This document shows positions 4,418-46,950 of a stretch of 49,489 bases of DNA, in pieces. This DNA comes from an uncultured Clostridia bacterium (GTDB taxonomy: Bacteria; Bacillota; Clostridia; Oscillospirales; Ruminococcaceae). The number at the start of each line of letters is the position of its first letter. Position 1 is the first letter of the stretch. Position numbers and translations under genes: made by a program. The stretch lies in contig CANQTP010000014.1 of the NCBI GenBank assembly GCA_947626755.1, forward strand, positions 1-49,489. The letters run 5' to 3'. Under the pieces are notes generated by a model, which was not told the origin of the DNA, ran no database searches, and saw only the letters and a list, made by a program, of their open reading frames with translations.

Positions 4418-6655
4418 TCAGCACACCTCCTCTATGCTTTTGTTAAATTCCGATTCCGAAAGCTGTGAACGTGCGATCTGCTCATATTCTTCGCAGCTTT
4501 TTACAAGTTCCCTGTGAGTGCCTTTGCCCACCATTTTTCCGTCCTCAAGGACGATTATCTGATCGGCATTCAGAATGGTGCTTACACGCTGGGCAACAAT
4601 TATGACAGCGGCGTCCTTTGTCCTTTCGGAAAGCGCTTTCCGCAATGCAGTATCTGTCTTGAAGTCTAACGCCGAAAAGCTGTCGTCAAAAATGTATATT
4701 TTAGGATCTCGGGCAATTGCTCTTGCTATCGAAAGCCGCTGCTTCTGACCGCCTGAAACATTGGTTCCGCCCTGCGCTATGGGACTCTTGTAACCCTCGG
4801 GTTTTTCGTTTATAAACTCGGCAGCCTGAGCGATCTCCGCGGCTTTGATGATATTTTCTTCAGAAACGTCCGCTGCGCCGTAGGAAATATTTGAGAAAAT
4901 ATCCCCCGAAAACAGTATTGCTTTCTGCGGAACATATCCGATCTGCCTGCGGAGCGTTTCCACGGACATATCCTTGACATTCACACCGCCCACGGAAATG
5001 CTTCCCTCGGTAACGTCAAAGAAACGGGGGATAAGCTTCACAAGGGTGGATTTTCCGCAGCCTGTGCTTCCGATAACAGCGGTGGTCTTTCCCGGTTCTG
5101 CGGTGAAATCAATGTCCGTCAGAACATTTTCTCCGCCGTCAGGGTATCTGAAACTTACATGATCGAATTTTACTGCCGCGTTTTCGGGAGCGGAAGTTAC
5201 GGCATTTTCATTGTCGAAAATTACAGGCTCAGTGTCCAGAACTTCCTTGATACGGTCGGCGGCAACGCCCGCTCTTGGCAGCATTACCGAGATCATCGTT
5301 ATCATAAGGAAGGACATGATTATAAGCATTGCATATGTTACGAATGCAGTCATTGCGCCAACTTCCAGAACGCCCGAATCTATCTTCTTTGCGGCTACCC
5401 AGACGATAAGCGCGGAAATACCGTTCATTACCAGCATTAGCGCAGGCATCATAAAGGACATTACCCTGTTTGTAAAGAGCATGACTTTCATAAGTTCCGT
5501 ATTTGCGCCGTCAAAACGTTCTTCCTCGTGCTTTTCCCGTCCGAAAGCCCTTATAACGGGAATACCCGTAAGTATTTCCCTTGCCGCAAGGTTCACCTTG
5601 TCCACAAGATCCTGCATTATCCTGAACTTGGGCATTGCTATCATCATCAGCGCAAGCACGATGCAGAGAACCATTGCAACTGCAAGAACGATTATCCAGC
5701 TCATTCCCGACCTGTATCTGCTGATGTTGATTATTCCGCCGACCGCAAGGATCGGAGAGTAAAGAACCATTCGCAGCAGCATAACAGTAACAAATTGTAT
5801 CTGCTGAACGTCATTTGTGCTTCTTGTGATCAGCGACGCGGTGGAAAATTTGTCAAGTTCCGCGTTTGAAAAGCTCATTACCTTGCGGAATATGTTATTA
5901 CGCAGGTCACGTCCAACGCCCGCAGCAACAAGGGACGCAAGAAATCCCACGGCTATCGCCATAAGAGCCATTATCAGAGCCATGATAAGCATTTTGCCGC
6001 CTGTGCGCCAGAGGTAATCGTTCTGAATTTCCTGCAGATCGATCCCGCAGGCTTCGTACTGTTCCTTTACGAAATACTTTGCCATGGAATCGGTCATGCT
6101 GCTTCCAAGAGAAGCAAGCTGCTCTTCAAGAGCGTTTCTCATGTCAAGAAGCGCGTTCCCGCTTCCCGACTGCTGTATCTGCATGAAAATTTCCAGCTCT
6201 TCCTCGCTCATCTGTGATGTGTCGATCTGAGACATATCCATGCTTTGAACGGCGGACATATCCACGGCGGAAAGGTCAACGTCCTCCGACTCTGCGCGGG
6301 AATTTATCATATAAGCAATTGCGATAACGTTGGAAAATTCCTCGTCAAGAGCGTCCAAGTCCTCCGTTTTTTCGTCTTTGAGAACGTAATATCCCGCATT
6401 TTCGTCATAATTGTAAATGTTTTTCCAGTCGGAAAGTTCCGTTTCGTTCATGAATGCGGAAACTTCCGCAAAGCCCTGTTCCGAAATATACGTCGGCACG
6501 GAATGTTCAATTCCCGAATTGGAAATGCCCACGTCTATAAGTTCGGAAGTATAGTCGGGCAGCGAAAGATCGCAATACGCCTGAACGAACAGCAGTACAA
6601 ATATTGCTGCGACAAAATACCAATACTTTTTCAGATTACGGAAAATATTTCCCAT
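4418..6655 (-). CDS. ABC exporter half-transporter (degenerate ATPase site, long loop)
   Basis: This 745-residue exporter subunit is longer than the usual ~600-670 because about 170 residues separate the first helix (near residues 10-30) from the second (near 215-240). That outer loop contains a Ser/Met/Asp-rich stretch with the pattern Asp-(Leu/Met)-Ser-Ala-Val / Met-Ser-Gln-Ile. The ATPase has Walker A Gly-Ser-Thr-Gly-Cys-Gly-Lys-Ser near 527, signature Asn-Val-Ser-Gly-Gly-Gln near 630, and Walker B Ile-Phe-Asp-Asp near 655: the catalytic Glu is Asp, which marks the degenerate site of heterodimeric exporters. Its partner is the next gene, whose ATG abuts this stop. GGGAG lies 7 bases before the ATG. 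It is cotranscribed 21 bases after marR. Confidence 0.92.
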   Translation of the reverse strand: MGNIFRNLKKYWYFVAAIFVLLFVQAYCDLSLPDYTSELIDVGISNSGIEHSVPTYISEQGFAEVSAFMNETELSDWKNIYNYDENAGYYVLKDEKTEDLDALDEEFSNVIAIAYMINSRAESEDVDLSAVDMSAVQSMDMSQIDTSQMSEEELEIFMQIQQSGSGNALLDMRNALEEQLASLGSSMTDSMAKYFVKEQYEACGIDLQEIQNDYLWRTGGKMLIMALIMALMAIAVGFLASLVAAGVGRDLRNNIFRKVMSFSNAELDKFSTASLITRSTNDVQQIQFVTVMLLRMVLYSPILAVGGIINISRYRSGMSWIIVLAVAMVLCIVLALMMIAMPKFRIMQDLVDKVNLAAREILTGIPVIRAFGREKHEEERFDGANTELMKVMLFTNRVMSFMMPALMLVMNGISALIVWVAAKKIDSGVLEVGAMTAFVTYAMLIIMSFLMITMISVMLPRAGVAADRIKEVLDTEPVIFDNENAVTSAPENAAVKFDHVSFRYPDGGENVLTDIDFTAEPGKTTAVIGSTGCGKSTLVKLIPRFFDVTEGSISVGGVNVKDMSVETLRRQIGYVPQKAILFSGDIFSNISYGAADVSEENIIKAAEIAQAAEFINEKPEGYKSPIAQGGTNVSGGQKQRLSIARAIARDPKIYIFDDSFSALDFKTDTALRKALSERTKDAAVIIVAQRVSTILNADQIIVLEDGKMVGKGTHRELVKSCEEYEQIARSQLSESEFNKSIEEVC

Positions 6656-6676
6656 ACACTGTCTCCCTTCAAAAAA

Positions 6677-7096
6677 TTATTCGTCAAGAACGTCCCGTAT
6701 TTTGCGGGAGATCCTGATAAATTCTTCCAAGTCTTTCATTCCCACCTTTTCAATAAGGAGTTCGGTCTTTTTCAGGAATTCCGCACGTTTTTCCAGAATT
6801 GTCTCCCTGCCTTTCGGAGTAATTTTCACAACGGTGCGTCTTGCGTCGCTGCTTGAATTTTCCCTTGTGATAAGACCGTTTTGCTCCATTTTTTTAAGAA
6901 GTGCGGCAACGCGGGCGGTGGAGACGTTCATTCCTTCGGCAATATCCCCCGCAACAATTTCCCTGTCGGAGTTTTCTAACATCAGCAGCACAAAGCCCAT
7001 GCCGCGCTTGGTTTCTTCCACGCGGGAGAAGATCTTCTGCGGAGCACAGGTCCTGAACTCTAACATTAACCTTTCCGCTTCGGTTTTAACGTCCAT
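6677..7096 (-). CDS. MarR family transcriptional repressor
   Basis: This 139-residue winged-helix regulator has the MarR pattern: an N-terminal dimerisation helix, a helix-turn-helix around Ala-Gly-Asp-Ile-Ala-Glu-Gly-Met-Asn-Val-Ser-Thr-Ala-Arg, the wing Arg-Glu-Asn-Ser-Ser-Ser-Asp-Ala-Arg-Arg, and C-terminal helices. The start is ATG at 7096 with AAAGGGTGG upstream; a longer frame from 7150 exists only because the 7-bp repeats are open there. It heads the operon with both ABC genes and the cytidylate-kinase-like gene. A perfect inverted repeat overlaps its promoter (7191-7212), so it most likely represses its own operon until a ligand releases it. Confidence 0.92.
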   Translation of the reverse strand: MDVKTEAERLMLEFRTCAPQKIFSRVEETKRGMGFVLLMLENSDREIVAGDIAEGMNVSTARVAALLKKMEQNGLITRENSSSDARRTVVKITPKGRETILEKRAEFLKKTELLIEKVGMKDLEEFIRISRKIRDVLDE

Positions 7097-43791: not shown

Positions 43792-44050
43792 TTGACAAAA
43801 TAAAATTTTTGTATTATTATGGATTATATGCATAAATTTTATACCTGTTTTATGCCTGTCATTTGTTTTGTACAGGCAATTTAAAAGCTTTTTCGTACAC
43901 GTAAACCGTGTGCATATTTTTAAAATATATGCATTTTTTATAAGATCCTGCAGAGAACATACCGCAGCAGAATGTTCCCGTACACCTCTAAAACCGCTGT
44001 TTTCCGTAAGTTCCTGACGCTCCTGATGTATCATGATGTAAAATGTCGAA
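43792..44050 (+). promoter_or_regulatory. spo0A upstream region: distal promoter and 0A-box-like site
   Basis: TTGACA at 43792-43797, 17 bases, TATTAT at 43815-43820 form a promoter that would give a leader of about 320 bases. In the leader are a 6-bp stem (GCCTGT / ACAGGC, about 43855-43880), an imperfect AT hairpin followed by TTTTTTAT near 43915-43942, and TGTCGAA at 44044-44050. TGTCGAA is an exact match to the Spo0A recognition core, about 95 bases before the ATG. Autoregulation is a reasonable inference. Confidence 0.5.
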
Positions 44051-44145
44051 TTTTGTGGAAATATTTGGATAATTTACTATTAAAAATCCTGCGGTTTTAT
44101 GGTAATATATGGATAAAGATAAAATATTCAGGAGGTCAATTATCA

Positions 44146-44949
44146 ATGACAACAACAAATACCGGAATTTCCACAAAAGTTCTTATCGGAGAAGAAAATG
44201 CAGAATTCGCAGGGCAGTGCGCCCGTGCGGCGGAATTGGCAGGATATAACGTAAAATTATGCCCTGCTGACGGAATGTCCTTATTCTCCGAGATAGAAAG
44301 CTTCATGCCGAATTTTGTAATGTGCAGCGCGATAATGCCAGGCGGCGGTGCGCTGGACATTATCGAAAAGACCAAGGACATGGAGAACAAGCCGTTCTTT
44401 ATCATAACTTCGTCCTATAAGAATACTTACATCGAAAAGGAAGTGATGGCTGTCCGCAACGCCTACATCATGCTGAAACCTTTTGAATCCGCCGCGTTTG
44501 TAAAAACCATAATGCATATTTCCCCTGACGAGCTTACGGAACTGACCGCAGACTGCTACCCGGAAGACCGCGATTCACGCCTTGAAATGCTCGTTACCGA
44601 CATTATACATCATATCGGGATCCCCGCTCATATAAAAGGATACCATTATTTAAGAGAAGCTATCCTTCTTTCCATAAACGATCCCGAAATGCTGGAAAGC
44701 ATTACAAAAATGCTTTATCCCACAATTGCGGAGAAATTCTCCACAACGCCTTCCAGAGTCGAAAGAGCCATACGCCATGCCATTGAAACGGCTTGGGACA
44801 GAGGTGATGTTGACGTACTTAACGGAATGTTCGGCTACACCGTCAGCGTCGGCAAAGGCAAACCCACCAACTCGGAATTCATTGCTCTTATTACCGACGA
44901 TCTCCGTCTCAAACACAAGCTCAGGAGCCGCGAAGTAAGCAATATCTGA
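44146..44949 (+). CDS. spo0A: Spo0A-type sporulation regulator with degenerate receiver domain
   Basis: This 267-residue protein has the Spo0A DNA-binding domain nearly intact (about residues 150-260): Ile-Pro-Ala-His-Ile-Lys-Gly-Tyr, Ser-Ile-Thr-Lys-Met-Leu-Tyr-Pro, [11 protein letters not shown] and Phe-Gly-Tyr-Thr-Val-Ser. The N-terminal receiver has the right length but lost its chemistry. The acidic pair reads Glu-Glu, and the phospho-acceptor Asp is Ser61 in Cys-Ser-Ala-Ile-Met-Pro; the conserved Lys in Leu-Lys-Pro-Phe is kept. It therefore cannot be switched on by the usual phosphorelay and may be constitutively active, ligand-controlled, or a paralogue of a normal Spo0A elsewhere. AGGAGGT precedes ATG 44146. 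The frame extends upstream to 43972, but this is leader. Confidence 0.9.
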
Positions 44950-45022: not shown

Positions 45023-46813
45023 TCAGTCATCTTCCGCGTCCTGAAGCGCATCATAACCGCTTTCGCCGGTTCTTACTCTTACAACGTCCTCAACATCGTA
45101 TACGAAGATCTTTCCATCGCCGATGTGACCCGTGTAAAGTGCCTTTCTCGCAGCTTCAACAACCGTTTCAACAGGGACTTTGCAGACTACTACTTCCACC
45201 TTTACTTTAGGCAGCAGAGTTGTTTCCACGGGAACACCACGGTACATTTCGCCTGCGCCCCTCTGAGTTCCGCAGCCCAGTATCTGCGTTACCGTCAGAC
45301 CTGTTACGCCTATGTCGCCAAGTTCGCGCTTCAGATCCTCAAACTTATTCTGCTTGCAGATAACGGAAACCTTGGTATACTTGTTCTTTGCGTCCGAAAG
45401 ACGTTCGATATGGGGTCTTTCGGAAACGGTAACAGGTACTGCCGCAGAAGCGGGAGCAGGAGTTTCCGAAGTTGTTGCGCCTGTAAATACTGCAATATTG
45501 TTTGCGTTTAAAGCAGGCATAAAGTCTGCATAAGAAGAAACCAGACCGTGTTCTGTAATATCCAGACCTCTTGTTTCTTCTTCAACGGAAGCACGAAGTC
45601 CGATAGTTGCTTTTATGATAAGGAATGTGATCGTAATTGTAACAGCAGTCCATGCGCCTACTGTAAGAACGCCCAGACACTGGAGTCCGAGAAGTTCGGC
45701 GTTGCCTGTATAGAACAGACCGCCAATTGTTTCGCCTGCTTTGTTTGCAATGCCGTATTCGGGAACAGCAGGATTTGCAAGAAGTCCTACCGCAACTGTT
45801 CCCCAGATGCCGTTCATCATATGTACGGCAACAGCACCGACAGGGTCGTCAATGTGGAGAACATTGTCAAGGAGCCATACTCCGAACACTACCAACAGTC
45901 CCGAGACCGCACCTACAACGCACGCGCCTGCCGCGTCCATAACGTCACAGCCTGCTGTGATACCTACCAGACCTGCAAGAGAAGCGTTCAAGCACATTGA
46001 AACATCAGGCTTCTTGTACTTTACCCATGTGAAGATCATACATACTACCGTTGCAACGGAAGGAGCAATAGTAGTTGTAAGGAATATCGAACCAAGCTGT
46101 GCGGGAGTTGTTGCAGCAGCACCGTTGAATCCGTACCAGCCGAACCAGAGGATAAAGCAGCCCAGAGCGCCGAGAGTAAGTGAGTGACCGGGAATAGCGT
46201 TTACCTTGGTGACCTTGCCTGTTTTCTTGTCGGTGACAAATTTTCCGATACGGGGTCCGAGGATCTTTGCGCCGATAAGTGCGGAAATGCCGCCTACCAT
46301 GTGGATCGCGCAGGATCCTGCAAAATCGTGGAATCCGAGCTGTGCGAGCCAGCCGTCGCCGTTCCAGATCCAGTGCGCTTCGATAGGATATATCAGCGCG
46401 CTGATAACTCCGGAATATACGCAGTAGGAAAGGAACTTAGTCCTTTCAGCCATTGCGCCCGAAACGATAGTTGCTGTCGTAGCGCAGAAAACCATATTGA
46501 AAACGAATGATGACCAGTCGAAATTATCATAAGCAGTGAAAATATCGAAACCGGGTTTTCCGATAAATCCCAGAACATCTTCTCCCATGAGAAGGCTGAA
46601 ACCTATCAGAATGAACATCGGCACACCGATACAGAAGTCCATAAGGTTCTTCATGATGATGTTAGCCGCGTTCTTGGCTCTTGTGAAGCCTGTTTCAACC
46701 ATTGCGAAGCCTGCCTGCATAAAGAATACCAGTGCCGCTCCTATAAGATACCATATGGAGAACACGCCGCTGTTGACTTCGGTTGCAATGGTGTCAAGTA
46801 AATTTGCATCCAT
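45023..46813 (-). CDS. amt: Ammonium transporter fused to a PII (GlnK/GlnB) domain
   Basis: This 596-residue protein joins an Amt channel (residues ~15-430, eleven helices, with Phe-Ala-Gly-Ser-Cys-Ala-Ile-His-Met-Val and the second pore His in Val-Ala-Val-His-Met-Met-Asn-Gly) to a C-terminal PII domain (about 480-585). The PII part has the T-loop Gly-Cys-Gly-Thr-Gln-Arg-Gly-Ala-Gly-Glu-Met-Tyr-Arg-Gly with the modifiable Tyr, Leu-Leu-Pro-Lys-Val-Lys-Val-Glu, and Thr-Gly-His-Ile-Gly-Asp-Gly-Lys-Ile. Normally PII is a separate protein that plugs Amt at low 2-oxoglutarate; here the plug is tethered through an Ala/Pro linker. AGGAGGGG precedes the ATG. Control is through a strong promoter and an antitermination leader (46851-46908). 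Confidence 0.95.
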   Translation of the reverse strand: MDANLLDTIATEVNSGVFSIWYLIGAALVFFMQAGFAMVETGFTRAKNAANIIMKNLMDFCIGVPMFILIGFSLLMGEDVLGFIGKPGFDIFTAYDNFDWSSFVFNMVFCATTATIVSGAMAERTKFLSYCVYSGVISALIYPIEAHWIWNGDGWLAQLGFHDFAGSCAIHMVGGISALIGAKILGPRIGKFVTDKKTGKVTKVNAIPGHSLTLGALGCFILWFGWYGFNGAAATTPAQLGSIFLTTTIAPSVATVVCMIFTWVKYKKPDVSMCLNASLAGLVGITAGCDVMDAAGACVVGAVSGLLVVFGVWLLDNVLHIDDPVGAVAVHMMNGIWGTVAVGLLANPAVPEYGIANKAGETIGGLFYTGNAELLGLQCLGVLTVGAWTAVTITITFLIIKATIGLRASVEEETRGLDITEHGLVSSYADFMPALNANNIAVFTGATTSETPAPASAAVPVTVSERPHIERLSDAKNKYTKVSVICKQNKFEDLKRELGDIGVTGLTVTQILGCGTQRGAGEMYRGVPVETTLLPKVKVEVVVCKVPVETVVEAARKALYTGHIGDGKIFVYDVEDVVRVRTGESGYDALQDAEDD

Positions 46814-46850
46814 ATTTTACCCCTCCTGAAATATTGGTAAAATTTGAAAC

Positions 46851-46908
46851 AAAAAGGGTACTGCAAGTAAACTGCGCCTTTGCAATTTACTTACAGCACC
46901 CTTGCTGT
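46851..46908 (-). promoter_or_regulatory. ANTAR-type antitermination leader of amt (two hexaloop hairpins versus terminator)
   Basis: The minus-strand leader holds hairpin P1 (ACAGC-AAGGGT-GCTGT, 46908-46893), a 2-base linker and hairpin P2 (GTAAATTGC-AAAGGC-GCAGTTTAC, 46890-46867). Both loops are six bases with A at position 1 and G at position 4, the signature of RNAs bound by ANTAR-domain antiterminators. The alternative fold is a 22-bp stem (46903-46882 with 46875-46854, three G-U pairs, no mismatch) followed by TTTTTGTTT: an intrinsic terminator. P1 and the lower part of the terminator use the same bases, so they exclude each other. Transcription would start about 7 bases before P1. Confidence 0.8.
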
Positions 46909-46921
46909 TTTCCATGATTTT

Positions 46922-46950
46922 ATTATACGCCGTCCGAGCAGAAATGTCAA
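46922..46950 (-). promoter_or_regulatory. amt promoter
   Basis: TTGACA at 46945-46950, 17 bases, TATAAT at 46922-46927 on the minus strand, a full consensus. From here to 47091 is AT-rich with no gene visible. Confidence 0.88.

Follow-up and report, generated by a model that had tools for sequence, protein, structure and literature searches.

The leader of the amt-PII gene on the minus strand of the window (the whole stretch of 49,489 nucleotides analysed, contig CANQTP010000014.1 of an uncultured Clostridia bacterium) very probably acts as a transcription attenuator under the control of the only ANTAR protein encoded in the genome, with a single hexaloop hairpin of the P1 type as its essential unit. 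All parts named in an earlier note on this DNA, which gave no strand for the element, were confirmed on the minus strand, namely a consensus promoter, two hairpins whose hexaloops both have A at position 1 and G at position 4 (A1/G4), and a 22-bp terminator with a T-run (Table 1). The leader folds at -45.5 kcal/mol, compared with -22.4 +/- 2.8 kcal/mol for shuffled versions (z -8.3; none of 200 shuffles as low). The -10 box ends 13 nt before P1, and a linker of 7 nt separates P1 from P2. Transcription was assumed to start about 7 nt past the -10 box, which places the start 7 nt before P1. A pair of A1/G4 hexaloops arose in only 4 of 1,080 shuffled leaders, a control in which 14 minus-strand loci were read in the wrong orientation. 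A plus-strand reading of the element was rejected, as its fold is weaker and amt-PII lies on the minus strand. Likewise, the leader is small and without an Rfam match, and a riboswitch or T-box identity was set aside. The Rfam search of the leader returned no family at gathering score, and its 13 weaker matches, at E values of up to 10 and for the most part to microRNA models, fell below gathering without exception and were taken as chance. The amt-PII protein itself scores above the cut-off of the NCBIfam amt subfamily. Just past the end of its gene, at window positions 43972-44949 on the plus strand, lies a gene for a Spo0A-type regulator (Spo0A_C domain).

Table 1 Features of the amt-PII leader and gene in the window
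Feature	Position	Strand	Basis or remark
Promoter TTGACA-17-TATAAT	46922..46950	-	12 of 12 letters match the consensus
P1, 5-bp hairpin ACAGC-AAGGGU-GCUGU, hexaloop AAGGGU	46893..46908	-	Sequence and folding; excludes the terminator
P2, hairpin UUGC-AAAGGC-GCAG, hexaloop AAAGGC	46872..46885	-	Nested in the terminator tip; genus-level feature
Intrinsic terminator stem, 22 bp	46854..46903	-	5' arm is P1 loop plus P1 3' arm
Terminator U-tract (T-tract in DNA)	46847..46855	-	Read from the letters
Ribosome-binding site AGGAGGGG	46820..46827	-	Read from the letters
amt-PII fusion, 596 aa (ammonium transporter and PII domain)	45023..46813	-	PF00909 E 8.1e-118; PF00543 E 2.2e-24

When ever longer pieces of the leader RNA were folded (minimum-energy folds, not kinetics), P1 formed first, at 24 nt, P1 and P2 stood together at 44-52 nt, and the terminator replaced P1 from 56 nt. 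The shared segment makes P1 and the terminator mutually exclusive, as the earlier note had claimed for both hairpins; for P2 the claim fails, since this hairpin is compatible with the terminator and does not compete with it. The terminator-blocking hairpin is therefore the first one, and the extra hexaloop lies downstream, within the terminator. One folding result counts against our reading: the P1 loop AAGGGU is able to close an extra A-U pair. In eut leaders, according to the available text of PMC3369936, it is the downstream hairpin P2 that overlaps the terminator. Of the features of the dual-hexaloop ANTAR target RNA (Ramesh 2012), the window leader has two hairpins of at least 3 bp with A1/G4 hexaloops and a short linker, but its terminator overlaps P1 instead of the distal arm of P2. 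Because the terminator overlaps P1 and P2 is nested in its tip, the pair is not in the textbook layout. A single A1/G4 hexaloop competing with a terminator was found in the window (P1), in the leader of GSIII in the same genome and in the P1-type units of the relatives described below. A classical EutV-type dual-hexaloop switch, in which a phosphorylated ANTAR response regulator would need both loops, would account for two A1/G4 loops 7 nt apart, a distance inside the 5-12 nt given for eut leaders in the available text of PMC3369931; hexaloop spacing is described there and in the available part of PMC8934654 as mattering for EutV antitermination, which counts against our reading. We consider such a switch unlikely, given this geometry and the further evidence presented below on GSIII, the relatives and the ANTAR receiver.

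For the attenuator that we favour, binding, the direction of control and the partner protein are what we infer, while the anatomy, like the conservation, covariation, co-occurrence, predicted regulon and lost phosphorylation residues reported below, was computed. RNA polymerase would start a few nucleotides before P1, at the start deduced from the promoter, and P1 would fold on leaving the polymerase. A free ANTAR protein would then hold the P1 hexaloop (A1, A2, G4 and the closing C-G), keeping the loop and 3' arm out of the terminator and allowing amt-PII to be transcribed; were the protein not free, the terminator 3' arm would displace P1 and transcription would stop. P2 would be a second hexaloop gained or kept in the genus, and it may recruit or hand over the ANTAR protein. 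The switch would allow transcription under nitrogen shortage, the direction reported for NitR: when nitrogen is limiting, that regulator is said to induce GS/GOGAT genes (available text of PMC6316151).

We gathered 110 amt-PII loci (30 plus 80, the latter being the best 80 of 587 confirmed places), of which one had too short a leader, leaving 109. A strict scan for two hexaloops with stems of at least 4 bp was positive in 24 of the 109, while the P1-type unit (a hairpin with an A1/G4 hexaloop, its loop and 3' arm serving as the 5' arm of a terminator) was present in 67. L005 and L033 are identical in sequence, and the unit-bearing leaders comprise 66 distinct sequences. Seven control patterns with other letters at loop positions 1 and 4 were found in 0-1 of 109 leaders. 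The shifted pattern.A..G. scored 61/109, because the loop is mostly AAnGGn, and ..A..G scored 10/109. With a looser terminator rule, 69 of 108 leaders carried a unit, 15 of them as tandem pairs, compared with 0-5 for ten other patterns. A promoter was recognised in 48 of the 67 unit leaders versus 208 of 987 random positions, and in 46 of these 48 P1 starts 6-15 nt past the -10 box. The RNA therefore begins close to P1, with no room for an upstream partner. The genus group (genus and sister genus) comprises 17 leaders, and 16 of them show the spacing of 13 nt seen in the window; in the remaining one, L016, no promoter was recognised.

A second hexaloop downstream of the first was found in 28 of the 66 leaders (2.0 expected from shuffles), and one upstream in three (1.4 expected). 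Fifteen of the 28 are the P2 of the genus group at one fixed offset; in two further leaders of that group (L006 and L018) P2 is present and too weak for the rule. Outside the genus group, 13 of 49 unit-bearing leaders have a second downstream hexaloop, in several cases some 40-54 nt further along, the distance expected of tandem units, and 36 of 49 have none. These 36 leaders speak against a need for both loops and, together with the geometry in the window, against the earlier description of the element as a complete EutV-type dual switch. Among the 39 leaders without a unit under the looser rule, 18 lie no more than 400 nt downstream of the end of GSIII; in such cases a leader would be expected before GSIII instead. 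Furthermore, 16 of the 39 match R1, a model trained on amt-PII leaders only (E up to 0.15; P1 unchecked), and in L038 and L079 loop position 1 is G by eye. One of the 39 has both an upstream GSIII and an R1 match, and six have neither.

The consensus of the unit is a loop C[AAnGnn]G on a covarying stem. Conservation was examined in an alignment of 42 of the 66 distinct unit leaders, covering 3 of the 17 in the genus group and 39 of the 49 outside it; ten of the latter were dropped by eye as weaker or near-duplicate. The finder demanded A1, G4, the P1 top pairs and the terminator, and to that extent the conservation and covariation result from how the leaders were chosen. The closing C-G, A1, A2 and G4 are invariant in all 42 leaders, and A2 and the closing pair were not required by the finder. 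In the P1 stem, 63 cells were changed on both sides versus 23 in shuffled alignments, and covariation was 0.675 versus 0.214 (slid partners at most 0.123); two of five covariation measures were not above the shuffles (double-change pairs, 4 versus 3.9; pair types, 10 versus 12.2). The terminator helix that shares the P1 3' arm had 80 such cells versus 25 and covariation of 0.546 versus 0.230 (slid partners at most 0.213). The P1 3' arm thus covaries with two partners, which is the mark of a switch. The compensatory changes proposed in the earlier note as a check were accordingly present in the wider relatives, in both the P1 stem and the terminator. The other check proposed there, conservation of A1 and G4, came out positive in the 17 leaders of the genus group, where both letters are invariant in both loops, those of P1 being demanded by the finder and those of P2 not. 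P1 barely varies in this group, and P2 retains 97.5% of its pairs and an invariant A1, A2, G4 and closing C-G. The invariance of the P2 loop letters would be expected of a dual switch.

Exactly one ANTAR gene was found in the genome of the window (E 4.8e-15, 190 aa, at 6378-6950 on the minus strand of locus L002). It lies outside the window, so that the regulator would act in trans as the earlier note had supposed; its suggestion of a place next to glnA did not hold. The gene follows the GXGXG gene of an apparent split glutamate-synthase operon, whose other subunits were named by eye, and precedes dapF. With one such gene present, the leader is best read as an ANTAR antitermination switch. The protein matches the structure of Rv1626 over residues 12-187 and that of EutV over residues 7-184, and NCBIfam names no family for it. 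We aligned it with the ANTAR proteins of 30 loci returned by the genome search (31 in total). The phospho-acceptor position is Asn in 26 proteins, including that of this genome, Asp in two, and Ser, Cys and Gly in one each. None of the 31 retains the acidic pair, which is Ser-Asn in the protein of this genome. Judged from these residues, the receiver is a pseudo-receiver and kinase input is unlikely. Phosphorylation is an unlikely signal because both the phospho-acceptor Asp and the acidic pair are missing, which goes against the activation by phosphorylation proposed earlier; the absence of the Asp in 29 of 31 proteins likewise speaks against the dual switch with a phosphorylated regulator. 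The nitrogen signal would therefore probably pass through a partner protein rather than a kinase. All 31 proteins keep the residues that correspond, by manual mapping, to Lys149 and Glu160 of EutV (numbering from PMC8934654). Two positions count against our reading: every one of the 31 has His in place of EutV Tyr164, and the equivalent of Arg142 appears to be Val in the protein of this genome.

In the genome of the window, R1 found the amt leader (E 2.3e-5), the leader of GSIII, a type III enzyme and the only glutamine synthetase found there (E 0.0015), and the leader of a circularly permuted ATP-grasp gene (E 7.3e-5, P1 of 3 bp). The last of these units lies at C22:18443-18486, and two other genomes (G001 and G003) carry 5-bp versions before the ATP-grasp gene. 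The GSIII attenuator has one hexaloop, a further point against a requirement for two, although another A1/G4 hexaloop occurs at the GSIII ribosome-binding site. This hairpin, past the terminator, has a 7-bp stem (AAATTCT-AAGGGA-GGAATTT) that encloses the ribosome-binding site, and it is also found in G018; it could act on translation or be due to chance. No unit was seen by eye before the glutamate-synthase operon of this genome, and relatives have a unit before gltB. R1 hits on contig C5 of the same genome were rejected as motif members, as their loop is by eye UAAGGA, which is not the motif. Two of these places (L159 and L148, 184 bases apart) are similar terminator-like repeats before ORFs which, on inspection by eye, may be part of a mobile element.

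Across 61 genomes, we examined 72 R1 hits chosen among the matches listed. The P1 stem has at least 4 bp in 51 of these 72 listed hits, and 48 of the 51 precede ammonia or glutamine genes (25 GSIII, 17 amt, 2 glutamate synthase, 2 AsnB, 1 AsnA and 1 class-I amidotransferase), two the ATP-grasp gene and one no ORF. Just 31 of the 48 are independent, because the 17 before amt include training sequences. With later R1 hits, PurF and large glutamate synthase join the set. Across 79 named loci, searched under a stricter rule by which 35 of the 79 amt leaders have a unit, 44 units lay in amt leaders and 12 elsewhere, an 81-fold higher density by length in the leaders. Of the 12 other units, nine are found before glutamate synthase and two before a gene identified by eye as CTP synthase. 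The hexaloop units of L058 and L065 lie downstream of amt-PII, before a gene whose N-terminus, judged by eye, reads as that of CTP synthase, an enzyme that uses glutamine. The remaining 21 of the 72 hits chosen among the matches listed have a P1 of fewer than 4 bp, and 18 of the 21 precede none of the reference genes. R1 thus also matches terminators without a P1 stem, as it would if the window held an ordinary leader terminator with hexaloops by chance. We regard that explanation as very improbable in view of the pattern controls (0-1 of 109), the 81-fold enrichment, the covariation and the fixed place of the unit near the transcript start.

The Pfam family PF03861 (ANTAR) was found in 46 of the 61 genomes. 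A unit with a P1 of at least 4 bp before an ammonia or glutamine gene was present in at least 41 of the 46 genomes with ANTAR versus 2 of the 15 without, the genomes being related and the counts uncorrected for kinship. The 41 comprise 34 genomes from the first set of R1 hits, three from a set of 21 hits added for genomes without ANTAR and for genomes without a unit so far, and four from the scan of amt leaders. By R1 score alone (E up to 1e-3), among the matches listed, the counts were 35 of 46 versus 3 of 15. No unit before such a gene was found in five ANTAR genomes, namely G004, G012, G044, G056 and G003, the last with a unit before the ATP-grasp gene only. The two genomes with a unit and no ANTAR are G010 (before amt-PII, 80% complete) and G052 (before asnA, 95% complete), and the ANTAR protein of the window's genome gave no match in either when used as query. 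G040 and G053, also without ANTAR, have a 4-bp P1 with no ammonia or glutamine gene behind it. As the genomes are related, this co-occurrence is support for the ANTAR reading, not proof. The units in G010 and G052 are what would be expected if P1 were read by another RNA-binding protein or acted as an unaided kinetic folding switch. This seems quite unlikely to us, as the loop letters obey the ANTAR rule, the unit co-occurs with the ANTAR gene across the genomes as counted above, the ANTAR gene lies within the same gene clusters in several genera, and NitR provides a precedent (available text of PMC6316151).

Overall, the interpretation in the earlier note is partly supported. In regulators of the NitR type, the ANTAR gene reportedly lies directly downstream of a GS gene, and the primary paper on NitR is that of Stutz 2007. 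The ANTAR gene studied here differs in that it ends a glutamate-synthase operon and is not next to GS, in a genome without a type-I GS. NitR of Clostridium saccharobutylicum is, according to the available text of PMC6316151, likewise an ANTAR antiterminator of ammonium assimilation in Clostridia. The window leader resembles the eut leaders that EutV controls in Enterococcus faecalis, as described in the available parts of PMC3369931 and PMC8934654, in its A1/G4 hexaloops, a conserved closing pair and competition with an intrinsic terminator. Within those same parts, EutV itself is phosphorylated, whereas the receiver here lacks the phosphorylation residues; and of the two hexaloops in a eut leader it is the downstream one that overlaps the terminator, whereas in the window the overlap is with the upstream hexaloop and the downstream one is enclosed by the terminator. 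In Clostridium thermocellum (Clo1313_2030-2036), an ANTAR gene is co-expressed with glutamate synthase genes, and Clo1313_2031 is annotated as GS (available text of PMC4676874, which describes no leader RNA). ANTAR sites upstream of genes for ammonium transporters, PII and glutamine and glutamate synthases are already in print (available text of PMC3369931). That ANTAR proteins control ammonium and GS/GOGAT genes is thus known, and the arrangement with a one-hexaloop core appears to be new. The available text of Walshe 2022 (PMC8934654) cuts the minimal ANTAR site to one hexaloop, leaves open how widely single hexaloops are used and calls for more bioinformatics and experiments. The leaders described here offer a large natural set of candidates for such use, in many Clostridia and before a coherent set of ammonia and glutamine genes. 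They make the single-hexaloop question directly testable and put a small portable switch on offer. A literature search, whose coverage took in few subscription journals, returned no further paper on ANTAR leaders or sites with a single hexaloop in this group of bacteria.

Of 20 regions from other genera, 16 have a type-I-GS-like gene ahead of and adjacent to the ANTAR gene (for example, L263 3458-4666, with others in L261-L280; the ANTAR position in G031, G043 and G044 was taken from the genome-wide ANTAR search). By eye, the GS-like proteins have QNE or QQE in 14 of 16 and QHE in two, and the flap Glu before Ala/Val-Pro, which we take to be a catalytic residue of glutamine synthetase, is missing in 10 of 16. 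These residues are hinting that the GS-like proteins without the flap Glu may have lost catalysis. Both of the two GS-like proteins scored fell below the NCBIfam GlnA cut-off. We infer that the GS-like protein may be the sensor partner of ANTAR in these genera, and a GS-fold nitrogen sensor for ANTAR proteins is thereby indicated as possible. The likeness to AmiR-AmiC, a pseudo-receiver ANTAR protein with a ligand-binding partner, lies in the unphosphorylated receiver (available parts of PMC3369931 and PMC3369936); unlike there, the candidate partner gene, the divergent GS-like one, adjoins ANTAR only in the other genera. No type-I GS or divergent GS-like gene was found in the genome of the window. 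Two features seem to be new, the single-hexaloop layout and, in other genera, the divergent GS-like gene beside ANTAR. Tentatively, the units could belong to a glutamine-economy regulon (amt, GSIII, glutamate synthase, AsnA/AsnB, PurF and CTP synthase) controlled through single-hexaloop attenuators by a pseudo-receiver ANTAR protein, with an adjacent GS-like sensor, probably catalytically crippled in many genera, in which glutamine binding to the GS fold would control RNA binding and for which GSIII might substitute in the genome of the window. Glutamate-synthase genes precede the pair of GS-like and ANTAR genes in 9 of the 16 regions, and in four genomes (G031, G050, G039 and G027) GSIII and amt-PII lie on the same stretch as the pair.
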